A stretch of 35,768 nucleotides of DNA, taken from positions 1 through 35,768 of the forward strand of contig MU602736.1 in the NCBI GenBank assembly GCA_025201865.1, in the 5' to 3' direction. This document shows positions 14,208-32,035 of this stretch, piece after piece. Source of the stretch: Ramicandelaber brevisporus (Eukaryota > Kickxellomycota > Ramicandelaberales > Ramicandelaberaceae). How positions within the stretch are numbered: the stretch's first letter is position 1; each line of letters opens with the position of its first letter. A model generated the notes under the pieces. It saw only the letters and a list, made by a program, of their open reading frames with translations. It was not told the DNA's origin and did no database searches. A program made the position numbers and the translations under genes.

Positions 14208-15980
14208 ATGAATACCTCGCAATCCAGACCAAGCGGATCGCTCGTGCGCTCTGCGATGCACGGCTCACAGAGTATCAGCAGCACTCATCCTGGTGGTGTA
14301 CCTATCAATCCCCCATCGGCTGGATCAGTCTCTTCACCAGCTCCACCTCTCTGGCTCAAAGTCTTTCGCCTCTCCCGTCCTACTGGATACCGCCCAGGCA
14401 GCGCTTCTATTCCCCTTGATGATCCACTGACATTTGCAGCATTCGATGAACGAAGCAGGCAGCGACGCGAGTTGGGAGGCAGCTTTGTTGGCGATGCATC
14501 CGACGCCGCAGTAGCTTTAAACAGTCAAGGCAGCAGCGAAGCGATGGCGCTGCCCACAGAGTTTGGCACAGTGTATCTTGGCGAACAGCTCTCCATGCTA
14601 CTGTGTGCTGCAAATGAGTCTCCGAGCGAAGTGTTTTTGACATCTGCTCGCATCACTATCACGACGCCGTCTCAAAGAGTTGCTGTGTTGCGGGATACTG
14701 ATGCTCAGCCACCAAGCTCTCAACAGCAACAACAGCAACAACAGCAGACATCGTTTCAACCCGTCAAGATATCGGCGGGAAGTAGCCATGAGATTGTAGT
14801 TCATCATGAAGTCAAGGAGATTGGCACATATACTCTGACATGCGCATTCCAATCGGCCCTATCGCCAGAACATGGCGAGCGAACTGTGATGCGCAAGAAC
14901 ATTTACAACTTTACAGTGCGTAATCCACTCAATATGCGCACGAAGATTACATCCACTCCACACGGCGCCAATGTCTTGCTGGAGTTGCACATTCAGAATA
15001 TTATGGCAGAAAGCAACACAGCAATTTGCTTTGAGAGGATCAGATTTGAGCCAACAAAGAGCTTTGAATGTATTGATGTGGCGTCAAATGTGTTTGCAGA
15101 TGATAAGTTTACGTATGCTGGTGATTCTCGCCAATATCTATTCTACCTGACTCCATCTACCAAGTGGAAAGCAACCGCTGCACCTCAACAGCCTCAACAG
15201 CCTCCCACATCGCCCACATCGCCCACATCACCGACCCAGCCATCACAAACAGACCTGACACCCGAAGAAAAGATGGATAACTTGTTGACTAATCGAGACG
15301 CACCCGGCCTCGGTCGTATTGACATCGTTTGGCGCTCGTCCACTGGTAGTATCGGCAGACTGCAGACCGGCCTCTTGTCACGCCGTGTGCTCAGCTCTGC
15401 AGAACGTCCAGTGTATGAAGTCATCTCTGCCGAACTTGGTACTACATCTGGCGTTGTTCGAGTCAACCAGCCATTCACTGTCAACGTTCGGATACGATTT
15501 AACCGATCTCAACAAACAATAGCAGCAGGCGGCACCATTCCAAACGAAATTGTCATCGTGGGTGGTAGTGGCGCATCAGCATCATCGTCACTACCGCCAT
15601 CGTCTCCGTCGAAGGTTCCCGACCGAAATGGTGGCAACAGCAACAACAACAGCGCTGGCGAAGCAAGAGTCCCAACAGAATCGGCGATTCGGTGGGTAGG
15701 TCCCAACAAGAGATCCGCAATTTACAACCCTGCTGAGAAACTGTATTTTGCTCAGCTGAGTTTTGTTGGTCTAAATGTCGGTCATCATGTCGTTGGCGGC
15801 ATCACAATCACTTCGAAGGAAGTAACAACTTCAAAAGTGGCAACATCGCACGATGGCAGTGGTCTCGATGCTGGTGCTGCTGCTGTTACTGCTGGTGCTG
15901 TTACTGTTAGTGAAGCGGATACTTCATCAGAGAGTGTCCTCGTTGAGTACCTCACGGATGTAAATGTGCGCCGCAGTTAA
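14208..15980 (+). CDS. TRAPPC13: TRAPP complex subunit 13
   Basis: This encodes 590 residues from an ATG at 14208. TRAPPC13 (formerly DUF974) is a peripheral subunit of TRAPP complexes, which activate Rab GTPases in ER-Golgi traffic and autophagy. Family features include LWLKVFRLSRPT near the start, LPTEFGTVYLGEQLSMLLCA, then EIGTYTLTCAFQ, YNFTVRNPLNMRTK and LLELHIQNIM. The later Ig-like part has GRIDIVWRSSTGSIGRLQTG. The protein is longer than animal homologues (about 417 residues) because of low-complexity inserts: a polyglutamine run near residue 170, SPT repeats (TSPTSPTSPT) near residue 335, and a Ser/Asn loop near residue 460. The subunit is absent from Saccharomyces, which is consistent with a non-yeast fungus. 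Confidence 0.88.
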   Translation: MNTSQSRPSGSLVRSAMHGSQSISSTHPGGVPINPPSAGSVSSPAPPLWLKVFRLSRPTGYRPGSASIPLDDPLTFAAFDERSRQRRELGGSFVGDASDAAVALNSQGSSEAMALPTEFGTVYLGEQLSMLLCAANESPSEVFLTSARITITTPSQRVAVLRDTDAQPPSSQQQQQQQQQTSFQPVKISAGSSHEIVVHHEVKEIGTYTLTCAFQSALSPEHGERTVMRKNIYNFTVRNPLNMRTKITSTPHGANVLLELHIQNIMAESNTAICFERIRFEPTKSFECIDVASNVFADDKFTYAGDSRQYLFYLTPSTKWKATAAPQQPQQPPTSPTSPTSPTQPSQTDLTPEEKMDNLLTNRDAPGLGRIDIVWRSSTGSIGRLQTGLLSRRVLSSAERPVYEVISAELGTTSGVVRVNQPFTVNVRIRFNRSQQTIAAGGTIPNEIVIVGGSGASASSSLPPSSPSKVPDRNGGNSNNNSAGEARVPTESAIRWVGPNKRSAIYNPAEKLYFAQLSFVGLNVGHHVVGGITITSKEVTTSKVATSHDGSGLDAGAAAVTAGAVTVSEADTSSESVLVEYLTDVNVRRS

Positions 15981-18378: not shown

Positions 18379-21143
18379 ATGATCAAGACTTCGACCAGAT
18401 CAGCGTTGAGATGGACAGCTCGGACAACACCATTCTGGACTGTTCTGCTGAGGCGAAACCAGACTGCAGTTCCACAGGCACTACCGCACGATGAGCAGAA
18501 TGCGGAGGTGCGGCTGCGAGTTCGAAGACTTCGACAATCCATGGGCAGATTGAGACATCCAACGTCTCCGCATTCATCCAGCTCAAGTAGCAGCAGCGGT
18601 AGCAGTAGCAGTAGTAGCAGTGGCAGTAGTGGTAGCAACGCACTCGGTTTGATGAGGCTAGTCAAAGATGTCACCAGCGACCACCGCTCGCTCTCACATC
18701 TCGCAGCTGATGATGCATCTGAATTTACAGCGACAATGTCTGCTCGAGTCTCGCGTGGAACCATAAATCCAGACACTGCATTCGAGGCACTGTCGGCTGT
18801 GTTGACGGCGATGTGGTTTGAGCCTCCGATTGATGGCGGCCCTGCGTATCATCGCCTGCGTGACAAAGTTGTGAAGGATCTTCCGGATTCTTTACCAGTT
18901 GATGCAGTGAATGGGTTACTCAGAGCATTGCTACATCTTGGTCGGGGATCTGACGCCATCGACTGTTTCCGCGTGATATGTGATGGCTTTCTTCAGCATG
19001 AGATCAACAATGGCAGAGTGGCAACAAAGAGAGTCGATGCAATTCGCGCACTTCGAGACGTACTGCGACCTTCAGGCGCAAACATTGCAATTGACACNNN
19101 NNNNNNNNNNNNNNNNNNNNNNNNNNNNNNNNNNNNNNNNNNNNNNNNNNNNNNNNNNNNNNNNNNNNNNNNNNNNNNNNNNNNNNNNNNNNNNNNNNNN
19201 NNNNNNNNNNNNNNNNNNNNNNNNNNNNNNNNNNNNNNNNNNNNNNNNNNNNNNNNNNNNNNNNNNNNNNNNNNNNNNNNNNNNNNNNNNNNNNNNNNNN
19301 NNNNNNNNNNNNNNNNNNNNNNNNNNNNNNNNNNNNNNNNNNNNNNNNNNNNNNNNNNNNNNNNNNNNNNNNNNNNNNNNNNNNNNNNNNNNNNNNNNNN
19401 NNNNNNNNNNNNNNNNNNNNNNNNNNNNNNNNNNNNNNNNNNNNNNNNNNNNNNNNNNNNNNNNNNNNNNNNNNNNNNNNNNNNNNNNNNNNNNNNNNNN
19501 NNNNNNNNNNNNNNNNNNNNNNNNNNNNNNNNNNNNNNNNNNNNNNNNNNNNNNNNNNNNNNNNNNNNNNNNNNNNNNNNNNNNNNNNNNNNNNNNNNNN
19601 NNNNNNNNNNNNNNNNNNNNNNNNNNNNNNNNNNNNNNNNNNNNNNNNNNNNNNNNNNNNNNNNNNNNNNNNNNNNNNNNNNNNNNNNNNNNNNNNNNNN
19701 NNNNNNNNNNNNNNNNNNNNNNNNNNNNNNNNNNNNNNNNNNNNNNNNNNNNNNNNNNNNNNNNNNNNNNNNNNNNNNNNNNNNNNNCATCCGTCGATAT
19801 CAGACAATGGCGAAGTTGTTGGTAAGATATACAATATTCTGAGCATGTCAAAGCTGCATATCAACCCTTCTGTATTTGCACTTCTTCAACAGCAAAGTAA
19901 ATCAGATGTTGATCTCAGTCTTCGGATAGTAAAGAGATTAATTAGAAGCAGTCGTACAATGACACATCAATCTGCAGCTTCAGCATTGGAGACCACAGCT
20001 CCACAATTGGTTGATAATCTTGCACATATCATTCACAAGAGTATGGCTGCTAAAAACTACCCAAAAGCAGAATATTACTTTGATCAATTAGCTCAACACA
20101 TGGATATCTTCACACCTGACAATACTAGTCGAAATGCCCGCCTCGTCTCTGCATTTTTGCGGCTTGCATTTGCACGAGGCGACTTGCGAAGAGTTGAAAT
20201 GGCACTTGACCGTATAAACTCAAGTGGTATGCATTCAACTGTTGAGAACTACAATGTTATGATTAATGGATTTGCACAGATGGGCTCTTATCGTGAAGCA
20301 GTGGCGCTGTTTGACTTTATGGCTGGCTCTGATAGGATGAAGAATGAGCAGCCCGATATAGTTACTTACACGCTGCTAATGAAGTGTATTGGATGGCATC
20401 GACAAGCCTGCATCAAAAAGAATGGTCACCCCACAGAGAAGGACACTGACCAGCTAACATCCAGTGTGTTATGTCCAAATGGCGAACAGTTGACTCCACG
20501 AGTCGTATTTGAGGCAATGGTTAACATGGCCGAGTCGCGCAATTGGACCATTGATGTTCCTGCCTGGCGCGCTTCGTTATCCGCACTAGCAACTTGGGCT
20601 GATTTGGATGGTATTGCTGATACTCTTGATTACGTTTCATCGTATCCACCATATGTGGCCAACCCCAGGAAGCTATCAAAGACTAAGCGTGGCAGTATAC
20701 TAGAGCAGATGATGATACAATTGCTCGATTATGGAATGCTGAATGAAGCCAACCAGGTGTTTCTGATGGTACGTTCTTCGCCATTCTTCACGTTGAATCG
20801 CGTCACATGTAACGAGCTGATTGCCAGTTTTACCAATTCTGGCAAATTTAATCAACATGCGATATTGGTATTCGAGTACATGCTAAATGGGCCATCGATC
20901 GAGCCAGAGCAACCCTCGGTATCCAACCAAGATACTCCCAACTTACCTGACGATTCATTGAAGAAGAAGTCAGCTGAAAGTAAAGAGCCATTTGTAACAC
21001 CAAACAAGTATACACTCAACAAGGTTATGCATGCAGCTGTCAACATACAGCGACAAGATACTATTGATCTCGTTAGAACTGTCGCAGAGAGGCTTTCATT
21101 ACCAGTGCCTTCCTTAAACCATCGATACCAGCGTTCATTTTAA
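18379..21143 (+). CDS. Mitochondrial pentatricopeptide-repeat protein, interrupted by an assembly gap
   Basis: The gene starts at an ATG at 18379 and ends at 21143, with 690 N between 19098 and 19787. The N-terminus is Arg/Ser/Thr-rich without acidic residues (MIKTSTRSALRWTARTTPFW), a likely mitochondrial presequence. A serine homopolymer follows near residues 67-90. After the gap the frame is open from the first known base and contains a clear PPR (VENYNVMINGFAQMGSYREA, then PDIVTYTLLMKCIG) plus further helical pairs (NRVTCNELIASFTNSGKFNQ; NKYTLNKVMHAAVN). PPR proteins bind organelle RNA to control its stability or translation. The frame before the gap differs from that after it, so either the N count is an estimate or the gap hides an intron. 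The exact orthologue is not recognised. Confidence 0.75.
19098..19787. other. Assembly gap (690 N)
   Basis: A run of N bases lies within the PPR gene; any sequence content is unknown. Confidence 0.99.
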
Positions 21144-25231: not shown

Positions 25232-25561
25232 TTAGTCGAAGAGACCGAAACCCATGTCGTCGTCGCTCTCCTCCTTAGCCTCCTCCTTCTTCTCCTCGGC
25301 GGCTGGAGCATCAGCAGCACCACCAGCAGCTGGGGCAGCACCGGCAGCTGGAGCGGCGGCACCAGCAGCGCCAACGTTCATGAGCAGAGCGCTGACGTCC
25401 TTGCCCTCAAGAGCCTTGGCGAACAGGGAGAAGTAGATGGCCTCAACGTCAGCGACGCCGGCGGCATCAACGAGAGCCTTCAGCTTGTCAGCGGTGATGG
25501 CGATACCCTCATCGGCAAGGATCAGGGCGGCGTAGACAATAGCCTGCTGGGAGGTGGACAT
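25232..25561 (-). CDS. RPP1: 60S acidic ribosomal protein P1
   Basis: This encodes 109 residues from an ATG at 25561. P1 pairs with P2 on P0 to form the ribosomal stalk that recruits translation factors. The N-terminal helical dimerisation domain is typical ([20 protein letters not shown]), followed by an Ala/Pro/Gly hinge and the universal acidic C-terminus [14 protein letters not shown]1 rather than P2 is inferred from the N-terminus (P2 begins MRYLAAYLL) and from LLMNVGAAG. The leader ends with an AAAAAAAAGAAAAC tract before the ATG. Strong codon bias (GCC, AAG) is in keeping with high expression. Confidence 0.96.
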
Positions 25562-26484: not shown

Positions 26485-27417
26485 TCAAACTATTACTCCG
26501 ATGCCCATCAACCGAAGTGCCGCAATGTCCGGAACGCAGCCCGACGATATGAGCAGTTGCACCATCTGATGCTGTTTACCTTTGATTGCCTTGTGCAACG
26601 ACTCGGTACAAGGTGCAGCACCCATCGAAAGCAGCCATTGCGCCATTTCAGCATGGCCAAAGAAGGCCGCAGCCTGCAATGGGTGACCACCACCAATATT
26701 GACATCTACACCAGCCTCCACAATCAAGAGGTGAGCCATCGGGAGATCACCAGCTGCACAGCACCGAGTCAATGCAGCGCCATTGTGACTACTTGGATTG
26801 GCGCCGTACCCAATGACTCGTCTCACAAGTCTCTGATGCTCAGCCGATGAAGGTAGCATCTCTTCGCGAAACAGCTTCAAATCAATTCTGAACGAGAACT
26901 GAGAAGAGCTTTCTCTGGCTGCAGTCGCTGTAGTTGCTGTAGTTCCTAAAGTCGCCGAATGCTTCTTCATACGACTGACCTCGCCTCTACTGTGTTCACT
27001 CATATCATCCCGCCTTCTCTTTCGTTTATTTGATTTGGATTGAGCTTGAGTAGTTGATTGTAGCACACGACATGTAGCCTGTAACACTGTCTGCTGCTGA
27101 TGATGATATTGTTGCTGTTGTTGTTGTTGAAGTTCCTGTCTTCTTCTTTGCTGTAACTCCTTCTGCTCATAAATGTATTCAATGGAATCCAGGACTGCAT
27201 TGTTGAACATGAGCCATCGCTGTGCTTTTGCCACAGCTTGTCCAATGTTCTCTATGTTTCTATCGTACTTTTGAACAAGAAACCTCGCTCGAACATATGG
27301 ACTCTGCGAGCGGCCCAAAACTAGCCACAGCGTCTTGCATGCTCTGACAAAGCTGGGGTTGCCAGACAGAACTAGCACCTCAACAAGTAGATCTGGAGGC
27401 AGCATACGGTCGATCAT
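26485..27417 (-). CDS. F-box-like / ankyrin-repeat protein
   Basis: This encodes 310 residues from an ATG at 27417 (a second ATG four codons on). The N-terminus (MLPPDLLVEVLVLSGNPSFV then ACKTLWLVL) resembles an F-box. A Gln/Arg-rich coiled segment follows, then basic residues (SNKRKRRRDD), which could be a nuclear signal. The C-terminal ~110 residues carry two to three ankyrin-like repeats (NGAALTRCCAAGDLPMAHLL, GHPLQAAAFFGHAEMAQWLL, LHKAIKGKQHQMVQLLISSG). Such proteins may act as SCF adaptors. The start lies 222 bp from the divergent Fanzor gene. Function is not predictable beyond the domains. Confidence 0.75.
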   Translation of the reverse strand: MIDRMLPPDLLVEVLVLSGNPSFVRACKTLWLVLGRSQSPYVRARFLVQKYDRNIENIGQAVAKAQRWLMFNNAVLDSIEYIYEQKELQQRRRQELQQQQQQQYHHQQQTVLQATCRVLQSTTQAQSKSNKRKRRRDDMSEHSRGEVSRMKKHSATLGTTATTATAARESSSQFSFRIDLKLFREEMLPSSAEHQRLVRRVIGYGANPSSHNGAALTRCCAAGDLPMAHLLIVEAGVDVNIGGGHPLQAAAFFGHAEMAQWLLSMGAAPCTESLHKAIKGKQHQMVQLLISSGCVPDIAALRLMGIGVIV

Positions 27418-27639
27418 CTTGAGCAGTCGTCTCTTTTCTTTGTTTGATTTTTTTCAAAAAAAACCAGAAGAACAACAAAACAAAAAAAACCAACAGACAC
27501 AAAAAAACACACACAAAAACCACACTGATACACATCCGCACACCAAAAAAAAAAAAAAAAAAAAAAAAGAAACAGGAGAACGATCGCCCTCCACCCTAAA
27601 CAAACACAACCTTATGTGAAAGTGTGAAAGTGTTTGCTA
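27418..27639. promoter_or_regulatory. Shared A/C-rich promoter of the ankyrin and Fanzor genes
   Basis: The 222-bp divergent spacer is almost entirely A and C on the + strand from 27465 to 27600. It includes an uninterrupted run of 24 A (27545-27568). Such A-rich tracts exclude nucleosomes and serve as fungal promoters. I see no terminal inverted repeat or target-site duplication in it. Confidence 0.6.
27545..27568 (+). repeat. Poly(A) run of 24
   Basis: Twenty-four consecutive A bases lie 71 bp upstream of the Fanzor ATG. It could be a promoter poly(dA) tract or the 3' tail scar of a retroposed sequence; nothing upstream looks like a retroelement, so the first is more likely. Confidence 0.9.
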
Positions 27640-29619
27640 ATGCAAAAGAACAAACCTGAAACACCACCACCACGCCACCAGAATCAACATCAGCACAACC
27701 AGAACCAGCAGCAACCAGAAACACAAACTCAAAAACGCAAACGCAAACGCGAAGCCAAAACCAAGACCACCAAAACCAAAGCCGAACACGAACACGAGCA
27801 CCAGCAGTCCCCACTTGAACCAGTTGAACACCGTACCAGGCTTAACAGTGAGCACCAGTTTGACATCTACACCAGCACGACTTATGACCATGTCGAAATA
27901 GGGCGACTGGACATGCGCTTACCAGCTGTGCCCGTGGACCACGAGATGGCAAGCACACTGCCAATCAAACCACTGGCAAGGCTCTTTGCTCCACCTGTTC
28001 CTCCTCCAACTTCTACCAAGACACAGGCAACCTTGCAAAAGCTGCGGAACATGATTGATGATGCTGATGGCCAGCGGAAGCTGGACAGGGTTATCAAGGA
28101 CTGCCTCTCCGAAATGAAGAGGCAGCTTCCTTACCTGCCTCATTGCACTGTGTGTGCCCACAAGGTTATGATCGAATTGAAGTATTACGTCAGATACCGT
28201 CTTCAGCGTGGCTTCGGTGTTGGTCTTGGTGATGGTGAGAGACTCGAGCCACGGGGTGGTTCATGGGTTAGCGAAGAGCATCTTGAAGCAGAACACAAGC
28301 ACACCAAAGAAGAGGAAGCAATACTACTGGGTGACGAGAACGAGGTGGTTCAGCTGGCATGTGATCCCGGCGTCCGCTACTTGTTGACCATTGTAGCAAT
28401 GTGGTCTCGCTGTCCGGTCGTACAGTATCTCATTCTAGCCGTCGTGTCTCGTTACATGAAGACTGCTCAGATGAAGCTCATTCCAGGTATCACGCCTAAC
28501 GCCCAAAAGGCTGGTGAAGTCAAAAAGGCTATTTCGCAAGTGTTGATGTATCGAGTCATCATCCGTTTCACCAAAACTGAGTGGAAGCGTTTCACATTTG
28601 CTAGTACAAGTTGCGAGATTGGCACAAAACTGGCTGTTGCTGAAGCTTCTGTAGCTGAAACATTCGTTGCTCTCATCACTAGCTACGCCGAGCGTGATGC
28701 GTTGCTGGCCACCGTGCCAGGATCCAAAAAAGAAGCTGCTGGCATTCTAGCTTTCTTGGCCCATGACTCCAAAGAAGCTACCGATTTCCGTGCTGCTATT
28801 AGCATGTTGCTTCCGGAGTGCAATGAGGACATGGTATCCGACTGGATAGAAGCAAACAAGGCATCATTGGTCAGCATATGCAGCAATTATCTGTGCATTT
28901 GGCGCAGCAAGCCTGAAGATGTGACAAAGCTGCCGCCACTGCCAACCAATGCTACTAAAGACTCTCAAGGTAATTCTGATTGGCATGACAAGGCTTTCAA
29001 GCTGCGCCGCGGCATCATTGCTGGTTTGCACATCAAGGCTGGCCAAGCTGACGCCAGCGTATGTATCCACAGTGCTACTACTAATCGACTGCGCACTCTC
29101 ATCTACAGCCACTTCCACCCCACTGCTCGTCTGAGCATGGCTATTGGCGAAGGGTACGACGGTGATTTCCGTATCAAATATGCACTGGACATTCTGCTCG
29201 GTGCACTCCCGTGCTTCTATTGCAACGAGTATCGCTCCTCGGCACTCTGTGCGGTCTGCCATCATCACACTGTTAAACCAGGCAGTTTATTCAAAGTGGT
29301 CATTAAGAAGAGTGATGTCGCTTCTGCTGTTGCTGTTGCTGCTACCAAAGCACAAGCCACACTCCCTCCCATTGTTGCATCTGATGGTGATGATGATGAT
29401 GACGATGTAATGGTCATTGACCAGGATCCATTTGATAATGATTCAGCCTCTGAAACAAATAATGATATGGATACTGAAATGGAGTCTGTGGATGATGATT
29501 GTGAATTGGACATTGATCTGAGTTCTCTTGCTATCACTGAGACTGATGATGATATTGATGATATTGATGATATTGATGAGACTGATGAGACTGACGATGA
29601 GGCTGACGATGAGACTGAC

Positions 29620-29678
<59 letters not shown>

Positions 29679-30312
29679 CGATGGTGCTGGTGCTGGTGGT
29701 GGTGGTGCTGATGAGAAATTCTCATTTTTTGGTAGAATATCCGGTCTGTTCGACATGTCGGGATCATCTCAGGGCAGACTGCCTAGAAGCTGCAAGCAAT
29801 GTCTCAAGTGCGAAGTGATTTTGGATAGAGACATGAATGCAGCTTTATCAATTGGATGGATTGCGCTGTGGCAGTCGCATGAGCTCTCAGCCAACCATCA
29901 AGCAGGTGTATTTGTTGAGTCAAACGCTGAACTGTCGCCACCCGCATTCCGCCCACAAACCAAGTGGTTGCTTGGATGGAATAGGGCTTCACTGTGGAAG
30001 AAAAAAACAGCCAAAAAGGATAAAGCTCGTCTCTGGAAGTTGATTGCGCAGCGTCATGAGCTGTACAAGGAAGCACTAGCAGGAAAGAAGAGGAACAAGG
30101 AGGCACTCGGCTCTACACTCGCCATGATTAAGAAGCTAAACAGTGAGCTTCGTGGCAAGCACCGACCTAAAGACAAGTTGACATACCGCAATGCTTCGAA
30201 TAAATTATTAGCACTGCGAGCCAAAGTGATTAGAATCAACTGGAGCAACAAGCATATTGAGAAAGTCATCAAGGTGCTGACGGCGTTGAATCGCATGATT
30301 GACAAGCAATAA
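27640..30312 (+). CDS. Fanzor (eukaryotic TnpB-like RNA-guided nuclease)
   Basis: This encodes 890 residues from an ATG at 27640. Fanzors are eukaryotic relatives of transposon TnpB and Cas12 that cut DNA guided by an omega RNA. RuvC-I is CDPGVRYLLTIVA (Asp242). RuvC-II is FYCNEYRSSALCAVC (Glu530), which also begins the zinc ribbon (Cys537, Cys540). The second half of the ribbon is CKQCLKC (718, 721, 724), directly followed by RuvC-III, LDRDMNAALSIGW (729-741). Residues 32-47 (QKRKRKREAKTKTTKT) are a likely nuclear signal after a His/Gln-rich start. The zinc ribbon is split by about 177 residues, acidic, with 22 consecutive Asp and a Gly-rich stretch. The C-terminal ~150 residues after RuvC-III are basic and helical. 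There is no frameshift or stop. Assignment to Fanzor1 or Fanzor2 is not settled; a degenerate TnpB-like transposase is the alternative. Confidence 0.85.
29617..29682 (+). repeat. GAT/GAC triplet repeat encoding 22 Asp
   Basis: A GAT triplet array within the Fanzor frame, mostly pure GAT with GAC at the start and end. More degenerate GATGATATT and GACGAT units precede it from about 29540. Length variation between strains is likely. Confidence 0.95.
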
Positions 30313-30501
30313 CAACACGCAACCAATAATTAGTTAAAGTTTAAAATTTACTCTTATTTTCATTTTTTGTATTTGAACGTGGCTGATACGGAGGCAGTCT
30401 TACAGTGGTTCTGTTCGCCGTGCATGTTGATTGGATCCGGTAATTCGGATAATCGTTGTTTTAAAATTGTTCGCAACATCAAATTAGCCGTCCTTTCCAG
30501 C

Positions 30502-30510
30502 TATATATAA
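30502..30510 (+). promoter_or_regulatory. TATA box
   Basis: TATATATAA lies 190 bp after the Fanzor stop and 476 bp before the next ATG on the same strand. It is the likely core promoter of the protease-like gene, giving a long leader. Confidence 0.5.
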
Positions 30511-30772
30511 GCTACGAATAAATGCTCGATGCCAAGCTCGGACCGTGTGCTTGGCGCATTCTTGTGCAATCATAACCGTGCTCTCTTTACATTCTCTTTT
30601 GTGCTCATTTCGACATCAGCTTGTTGCTTTCTTTCTTGATACTCCGCTAAAGCCGGTCCCAGTCCAAAAAACCACTCTCTCTTTTTTATTTTTTGTGGGC
30701 GACTATCAACTTCGACCAAGTGCACTTTTCTTTCTTTCTTTCTTTCTTTCCTTTTTATCCCCCCTGGCATCG

Positions 30773-30798
30773 CACACACACACACACACACACACACA
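30773..30798 (+). repeat. (CA)13 microsatellite
   Basis: Thirteen perfect CA units in the leader of the protease-like gene, preceded by a TTTC tetramer run. Confidence 0.95.
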
Positions 30799-30985
30799 AG
30801 GCTCGGTAGCTGACTAGCTGGTCTGTTCCTTTTCCCTCTTTCTTTCTCTCCCTCTCTCTTCCTTCCTCCTCCTCCCTCCTTTTCGAACTCCTTTGGACCG
30901 GTTTGCTTGTCCTTTTTCCTTGTCCCTCTACAGTCTCTTCAGCTCGATCTATTGTTTATATACCTCAATACTTTTTTTTGCAGAC

Positions 30986-32035
30986 ATGCGTGCGTTCAGC
31001 GTCTTCGGCTCCCTGGCCACAGTGGCCGTCCTCTCCACAGCCGTCTCAGCTTTCGAGCCGCGCCTGCACAAGCGCCTGGTAGGTGGCCAAAACATTGGCT
31101 CGAATGTCACTTACATGGCTCACATCGGTGTCCTCCCGAAGCCCTTCAACGCCAGCAACCCCGACAACCAGAAGGGCAACGGCGGTGGCCCCGATGCCCA
31201 GTTCATCTGCTCTGGTGTCATCATCAGCCCACGCTTCGTTGTGACCGCTGCCCACTGCTTCCTCGACCGCACTAGCAATGCCACCAGCGCAGGCGACCCA
31301 CCTATGATCCCTGTTGAGCGTCTCTTTATTGGCGTAGGCAGCGTTGAATCGGCAAAGAGTATCCCAATTGGCGTCAAAGGCGTTAGAATCACAAAGGAGT
31401 TCTCGTACACAACTCTTGAGAATGACATTGGTCTTGTCGAGCTGGCAACTCCACTCACATTTGGCTCAAACCCACCAATTAGTGCCCTCAAGGCCACCAC
31501 TGCTCCAATCATTGAGAACCAGGCACTGACTCTTCTTGGCTGGGGCAAGACCTCTCTGACCGCCAACACTTCAAACCCTATTCTCCAAGGTGTCAACCTC
31601 GTTACCGGTATGACCAGCGATTGCAAGGCTGCCTCGTCCATCTTCGATACCCAGGACGGCAAGCTCATTTGCACCGCCCCATCCGTCGGCAAGGGCCCCT
31701 GTGCCGGTGATGGTGGCAGCCCATTGGTTGCCAAGCAGGATGGCCAGCAGGTTCTGGTTGGTTTGCTCGGTTTTGCCAAGAATCGCAACGGTACTGCACC
31801 AATGGACTGTGCCTCCAAGGATATCTTCTCATTCTACGCTCATGTTAGCCAGTATGCCGATTTCATCAAGCGTGCCACCAACCTGACTGACGATGACTTC
31901 CTGCTTGCCCCAGCCCCAGACTCCAGCAAGGACAAGGCTCCAGCCAGCACGCCAAACAGCGCCTCGTCTATCAAGACGGGCACTGCATTCGCCAGCGTGG
32001 CTGTCGTCGCCGCTGCCATGGCTGCCCTCTTCTAA
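30986..32035 (+). CDS. GPI-anchored trypsin-like protein lacking the catalytic serine (pseudoprotease)
   Basis: This encodes 349 residues from an ATG at 30986. It has a signal peptide (MRAFSVFGSLATVAVLSTAV), a basic activation-like site (LHKR|LVGGQN) and an S1 protease fold. His90 (VTAAHC) and Asp147 (LENDIGLVEL) of the triad are kept. The serine motif, normally GDSGGPL, reads CAGDGGSPLV: the serine position is Gly243, and a serine appears two residues later. Peptidase activity is therefore expected to be lost. The C-terminus has a Pro/Ser/Lys spacer and a hydrophobic end (TAFASVAVVAAAMAALF) typical of a GPI signal. Several NxT/NxS sites suggest glycosylation. Its codon use is biased, suggesting real expression. 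An intact relative lies 1 kb away on the other strand. Confidence 0.88.
   Translation: MRAFSVFGSLATVAVLSTAVSAFEPRLHKRLVGGQNIGSNVTYMAHIGVLPKPFNASNPDNQKGNGGGPDAQFICSGVIISPRFVVTAAHCFLDRTSNATSAGDPPMIPVERLFIGVGSVESAKSIPIGVKGVRITKEFSYTTLENDIGLVELATPLTFGSNPPISALKATTAPIIENQALTLLGWGKTSLTANTSNPILQGVNLVTGMTSDCKAASSIFDTQDGKLICTAPSVGKGPCAGDGGSPLVAKQDGQQVLVGLLGFAKNRNGTAPMDCASKDIFSFYAHVSQYADFIKRATNLTDDDFLLAPAPDSSKDKAPASTPNSASSIKTGTAFASVAVVAAAMAALF

Follow-up and report, generated by a model that had tools for sequence, protein, structure and literature searches.

The Fanzor-type gene and its neighbours

The stretch of Ramicandelaber brevisporus DNA analysed here (hereafter the window, 35,768 nucleotides) carries at 27640..30312, on the forward strand, an open reading frame (ORF) of 890 codons for a putative Fanzor-type protein. 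It runs from an ATG to a stop codon at 30310-30312 without any internal stop or frameshift, in agreement with the first-pass annotation. Its stop-to-stop frame measures 894 aa, which puts the ATG at 27640 at the start of the frame. R. brevisporus is an early-diverging fungus, and Fanzors are eukaryotic RNA-guided nucleases. The gene is, as also described in that annotation, tightly seated between host genes: according to Pfam, an ankyrin-repeat ORF (26485-27417, reverse strand) lies 222 bp upstream and a trypsin-like ORF (30893-32035, forward strand) 580 bp downstream. Elsewhere in the window, a run of N at 19098-19787 accounts for the apparent GC drop at 19001-20000 and for the overlapping ORFs found there.

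From its N-terminus, the window protein (P0001) displays a basic stretch, KRKRKR (residues 32-37; 27733..27750), a possible nuclear signal on the strength of which it may be imported into the nucleus. RuvC-I is represented by Asp242 (28363..28365) within CDPG (residues 241-244), RuvC-II by an alternative glutamate, Glu530 (29227..29229), and RuvC-III by Asp731 (29830..29832) in an RD motif. All three were recovered by alignment, at the residue numbers already proposed. As for the choice between Asp731 and Asp729, which had been left open, Asp731 is preferred, since it aligns with the Asp of the RD motif in solved TnpB chains, which we take to be the catalytic one of TnpB. The zinc ribbon consists of a first cysteine pair, Cys537/Cys540 (29248..29259, read from the sequence and the alignment), and a second one, Cys721/Cys724 (29800..29811, from the alignment, with the TNB profile matching residues 720-738). 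Between these pairs lies an insert of 180 residues (29260..29799), 37% of which are Asp or Glu, including one run of 22 Asp. Concerning the cysteines previously assigned to the ribbon, the CAVC pair and Cys721/Cys724 are retained, while the first Cys of CKQCLKC (Cys718) falls outside the pairs.

The ordered pattern D[PA]G...E..[ST][ST]..C..C...C..C...RD did not occur in any of 20,000 shuffles of the window protein. Its E-to-RD part was found in 27 of the 686 stop-to-stop frames of at least 100 aa from the window and the loci examined, and all 27 are copies of the family described below or overlapping stretches of such copies.

Related copies in the genome and in databases

The R. brevisporus genome (17.9 Mb, 510 contigs) was searched in six frames with the window protein, which gave 12 matches; this search, a scan with the TNB profile and a search with the C32 protein delineated three subfamilies, with about 20-23% identity between them. 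Subfamily A contains the window copy, C7, C61 and C398 (the latter two partly N), and the proteins P0002 (partial) and P0004. Subfamily B consists of C54, C185 and C38 (P0005, P0006, P0007), C485 at a contig edge and the protein P0008, and subfamily C of C32, a broken copy on C453 and a fragment on C304. Two of the 12 matches, C117 and C11, were rejected as members, since their similarity does not extend beyond the acidic stretch and the sequence around it. Two pairs of stretches, C185:31271-36241 with C485:7000-11970 and C54:57914-59862 with 59873-61821, are 99.8% identical; they may represent two haplotypes, or else a redundancy in the assembly next to a short gap of N. The deposited gene model of P0004 (GQ42DRAFT_163285) omits the RuvC-II stretch, so the annotation of this family is unreliable.

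An alignment of six sequences from the three subfamilies (A2) has 45 invariant columns, among them all seven expected catalytic and zinc residues (two Asp, one Glu and four Cys). If two D, one E and four C are drawn at random, the chance of all seven being invariant is about 2.6e-5. Cys718 is missing from subfamilies B and C, and from P0003 and P0004, and is present in C7. The spacing between the two zinc pairs is 47 residues in B-type proteins vs. 180 in the window protein. An N-terminal CxxC (Cys169/Cys172; 28144..28155) is likewise invariant in the alignment across A, B and C, in six rows out of six, and is possibly a second metal site.

In a set of 5.8 billion proteins, residues 60-590 of the window protein found three matches and a six-sequence profile four, all of them hypothetical proteins of R. 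brevisporus. No relative from outside the species was detected in this set with about 8000 candidates scored per search, a depth at which distant relatives were possibly missed. The best database match is 81% identical to the window protein and no identical entry appears among the matches listed, so that the window copy may be unannotated. Searches by tblastn with P0005 against plasmids and with P0001 against phages gave no match and, in viral contigs, 55 stretches fitted a family pattern, none of which was confirmed.

Relationship to TnpB and Fanzor proteins

The first-pass identification as a Fanzor is upheld by the DPG and alternative-glutamate fingerprint, by the conservation of the seven residues and by local matches to TnpB. 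It finds no backing in profile cut-offs, since all matches of the window protein to Fanzor/TnpB-related profiles lie below the curated values. With the Pfam TNB profile, it scores 16.5 bits (cut-off 26.3). Over the whole genome, this profile yields eight matches at E<=1, all belonging to the same family and none above the cut-off. One published Fanzor survey begins from a zinc-ribbon profile (PMC10711439), and profile surveys may miss families which, like this one, fall below its cut-off. B-type proteins score 20 bits against a TnpB model of NCBIfam (cut-off 100). Against a PHROG transposase family they score 20-21 bits, and the A-type P0003 17.2 bits. Neither NCBIfam nor PHROGs gave a credible TnpB match for the window or C32 proteins. 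A match of the Q/H-rich tail of P0001 to an NCBIfam elastin-binding protein (15.9 bits, cut-off 300) was rejected.

In a profile-profile comparison with five TnpBs (hhalign), A2 aligned over 36 columns (E=1.9e-6) and A3, an alignment led by the window protein, over 47 (E=4e-6). This homology is confined to the second zinc pair and RuvC-III, which counts against the interpretation favoured below. Searching the PDB with the A2 profile returned seven chains at E<=10, headed by an unrelated, non-TnpB chain (E=0.051) and followed by two TnpB chains with E about 0.08. With P0001 itself, five matches at E<=1 were obtained, and all were discarded as lying in the acidic stretch.

The Fanzor fingerprint, as described in PMC10711439, combines DPG with a glutamate placed six residues ahead of the zinc finger. 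Both parts are present in the window and C32 copies (in the former, six residues separate Glu530 from Cys537); B-type proteins have DAG. An older TnpB/Fanzor motif, D-X(125,275)-[TS][TS]-X-X-C4 zinc finger-X(5,50)-RD (PMC3627910), is matched in its order, in [TS][TS]XXC and in C-X5-RD; the first spacing, 290 residues, exceeds the maximum of 275. The TDG motif of the Fanzor1 WED domain is absent before RuvC-I of the window protein, where LGDG is the nearest sequence. Also, a Pfam scan of eight ORFs of the window showed no serine recombinase of the kind found in IS607-type/Fanzor2 elements. Since the fingerprint is present while the spacing lies outside the range given in PMC3627910 and TDG is lacking, we call the protein Fanzor-type and assign it to neither Fanzor1 nor Fanzor2. 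Judged from its sequence, its description as a very divergent Fanzor-type protein is well supported.

Elements carrying the sister copies

The A copies C7 and C61 sit in elements of 8-10 kb, together with a convergent partner gene. Their common DNA (C7 64714-72589 and C61 15642-25355, partly N in C61) consists of collinear pieces of 81-89% identity, and the C61 element ends in perfect 15-bp inverted repeats (15587-15601 and 25364-25378), at which no clear target-site duplication was seen. The protein encoded by the partner ORF of C7 (68150-71971, reverse strand, 1274 codons) weakly matches a PHD finger (18.6 bits, cut-off 24), and no further domain was recognised within the 1116 residues scanned; with about 8000 candidates scored, its only match in the protein set comes from R. 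brevisporus itself (P0009). A C-type partner gene occupies the same convergent place at C32:58927-60852 (reverse strand), and its product is a distant relative of the C7 protein, 24% identical to it over the matched part.

C32, C453, C7 and C61 have terminal-region DNA in common. The genome contains 46 occurrences of one end motif, GCTCATCCGCCTGG, with no more than one mismatch (25 exact), vs. two of a reversed control, and 11 of a second one, ATTTGGGCAAATCC, taken from the C61 and C398 ends, vs. none for its control. This common terminal DNA and these end motifs make the A- and C-type genes look like the cargo of one transposon family. The B-type copies lie within shorter repeats, where the Fanzor gene is the only gene found and where alignments gave no clean termini. 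A short repeat at C38:66798-67439 resembles both flanks of a B-type copy with the gene missing, and is probably an internally deleted derivative.

Missing element ends at the window copy

Similarity of the window copy to its sisters is limited to 27703-30346, which covers the ORF from codon 22 onwards and 34 bp downstream of it (30313..30346); no similarity to C7 was found beyond 30346. Neither the 222-bp gap upstream (27418..27639) nor the rest of the downstream gap (30347..30892) contains a sister-element match or an end motif. Among the A copies with readable flanks (the others being C7, C61 and C398), it is the sole one without element DNA. Within the mismatch levels applied, neither GCTCATCCGCCTGG nor ATTTGGGCAAATCC was found on the 67,423-bp contig of the window; looser scans of the window gave zero, zero and one match, the latter at chance level (22 of 100 shuffles). 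Since C7 and C61 are still 89% identical in the piece that spans the ORF start and some 0.9 kb upstream of it, and the synonymous divergence of the window copy from C7 is 0.41, its flanks should have stayed recognisable; they are more likely missing than worn away.

Placed between ordinary genes and lacking recognisable transposon ends, the window copy may be stranded or domesticated. Domestication by the host, as an RNA-guided nuclease freed from its transposon and perhaps hitting the family's transposons by means of guides supplied in trans, appears doubtful. If true, the gene would represent a Fanzor-like lineage of deep divergence, in which the mobile members are accompanied by a partner protein of their own.

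It is also unlikely that the window copy is still the cargo of a transposon, either of a kind unlike that of its sisters or with ends that escape recognition because they are too diverged or too few. Many transposon superfamilies have captured Fanzors (PMC3627910), and a single-copy element would give no repeat revealing its ends; but at E<=1 the two flanks are not joined by any inverted repeat, the gene-spanning pairs among the 20 inverted pairs listed are short (e.g. 15 nt, 87%, inside the neighbouring ORFs), and the gaps to the neighbouring genes are 222 and 580 bp.

Selection and divergence

Between the window copy and C7, dN/dS is 0.40 over 818 codons (dS 0.41). It is about 0.30 from RuvC-I to RuvC-II, around RuvC-III and in the C-terminal part. 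Higher ratios are seen in the N-terminal domain (0.54), the tail (0.68) and the acidic insert (0.72). For three B pairs, it ranges from 0.20 to 0.24. Synonymous divergence from C7 along 27640-30309 forms a mosaic, with values from 0.07 to 1.03 across 60-codon windows; this may reflect gene conversion, recombination or exchange among family copies.

In a tree of 11 proteins, where the order inside subfamily A is mostly unresolved, the window branch is the longest in A (0.28 vs. 0.024-0.12). Over 476 shared columns, identity between the window protein and the other A proteins is 76.5-80.7%, vs. 83.6-91.8% for these others among themselves. On the window branch alone, dN/dS is 0.61-0.97, as measured on the 102-235 N-terminal codons where the other DNA copies are readable, a result which speaks against the favoured interpretation. 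When random substitution of the ORF was simulated, the frame remained open in 13 of 1000 cases at 0.05 substitutions per site and in none of 1000 at 0.1. The intact ORF points to constraint at some time since the copies split, although, given the values on the window branch, it does not establish constraint after any detachment.

These figures bear on a further possibility, that of a relic, i.e. a former cargo gene under relaxed selection and stop-free by chance. The ratio on its own branch in the readable N-terminal part, those of the tail and acidic insert, and the length of the branch are consistent with such a fate, which is nonetheless quite improbable in view of the dN/dS of about 0.30 in the RuvC and C-terminal parts, the retention of all catalytic and zinc residues and the rarity of open frames under simulated neutral change.

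The question of the guide RNA

The guide RNAs of the Fanzor1 systems studied in PMC10711439 reach past the transposon end. The stop codons of the Fanzor ORF and its convergent partner in the C7 element are about 60 bp apart, far from the right end, so that a guide would be encoded elsewhere, overlap the partner ORF or be non-existent. A guide overlapping the 3' end of the window ORF was sought via lowered synonymous divergence and the opposite was seen: divergence is greatest at the 3' end, with 0.87 over the final 40 codons, again to the disadvantage of the favoured interpretation. No guide region was found for the window copy. With Rfam, two sub-threshold snoRNA matches in a GAT repeat were rejected.

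It is very unlikely that the protein, though derived from TnpB, is no longer RNA-guided and acts in mobile copies as a transposition or DNA-binding factor with the partner protein, for while the 60-bp spacing leaves little room for the usual end-reaching guide and both A- and C-type elements retain a related convergent partner, the D-E-D residues are kept in the six A2 rows, across three subfamilies, and a guide could overlap coding sequence or be encoded elsewhere.

Interpretation and significance

On balance, we lean towards reading the window gene as that of a highly divergent TnpB/Fanzor-type RuvC nuclease, probably stranded and immobile, with a protein that is still competent. It belongs, with its DPG and alternative glutamate, to a family so far detected only in R. 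brevisporus, in which sister genes are carried as cargo by DNA transposons. By homology, the protein would most likely bind a guide RNA produced at one of the family's loci, and Asp242, Glu530 and Asp731 would cut the matching double-stranded DNA; in the mobile relatives, such cleavage might favour keeping the transposon at the sites it leaves behind. The window copy would have lost its transposon body, or never had one, and its protein might act in trans with guide RNAs of the family or have been taken over by the host.

New here are the extent of the divergence, a zinc ribbon interrupted by an insert, a partner gene in the mobile sisters and a window copy that appears to be detached. Beyond the first-pass annotation, the analysis adds the transposon-borne sisters, the absence of their ends at this locus, the 180-residue insert and the fact that no relative was detected outside the species. 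Among the papers searched, none joined Fanzor with Ramicandelaber or with 'PHD finger', and none joined Ramicandelaber brevisporus with transposons or transposition. Among the matches listed, no title mentioned a domesticated Fanzor, and 'Fanzor' was absent from those obtained by fungal group names. With three subfamilies, two kinds of elements and one copy without element ends in an 18-Mb genome, two questions would become testable in one organism: how a Fanzor changes its transposon vehicle, and whether the host has taken over any of them.

Comparison with known systems

As for the TnpBs of IS200/IS605 elements (five plasmid-borne proteins), their C..C - RD - NAA region aligns with the window family over 36-47 columns. 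The TnpBs aligned differ in having a glutamate upstream of the zinc ribbon, in being about half as long and in a RuvC-I Asp followed by a hydrophobic residue or N, where the window protein has DPG.

PpFz1 (PMC11423790) is likewise a Fanzor enlarged within RuvC, by a Fanzor RuvC Insertion domain of about 100 residues. The insert of the window protein differs in lying between the cysteine pairs of the zinc ribbon, in being longer and in its acidic, low-complexity composition.

Compared with Fanzor1 and Fanzor2 as described in PMC10711439, the window protein is without TDG, has 290 residues from the Asp to [TS][TS] and a zinc ribbon split by 180 residues; its B-type sisters have DAG, and no whole-length similarity was found. 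In common with Fanzor1 and Fanzor2, it has DPG, the alternative glutamate, a C4 zinc ribbon and the RD of RuvC-III, as well as a eukaryotic host and transposon-borne relatives, and Fanzors are already known from early-diverging fungi (PMC10432273; PMC3627910).
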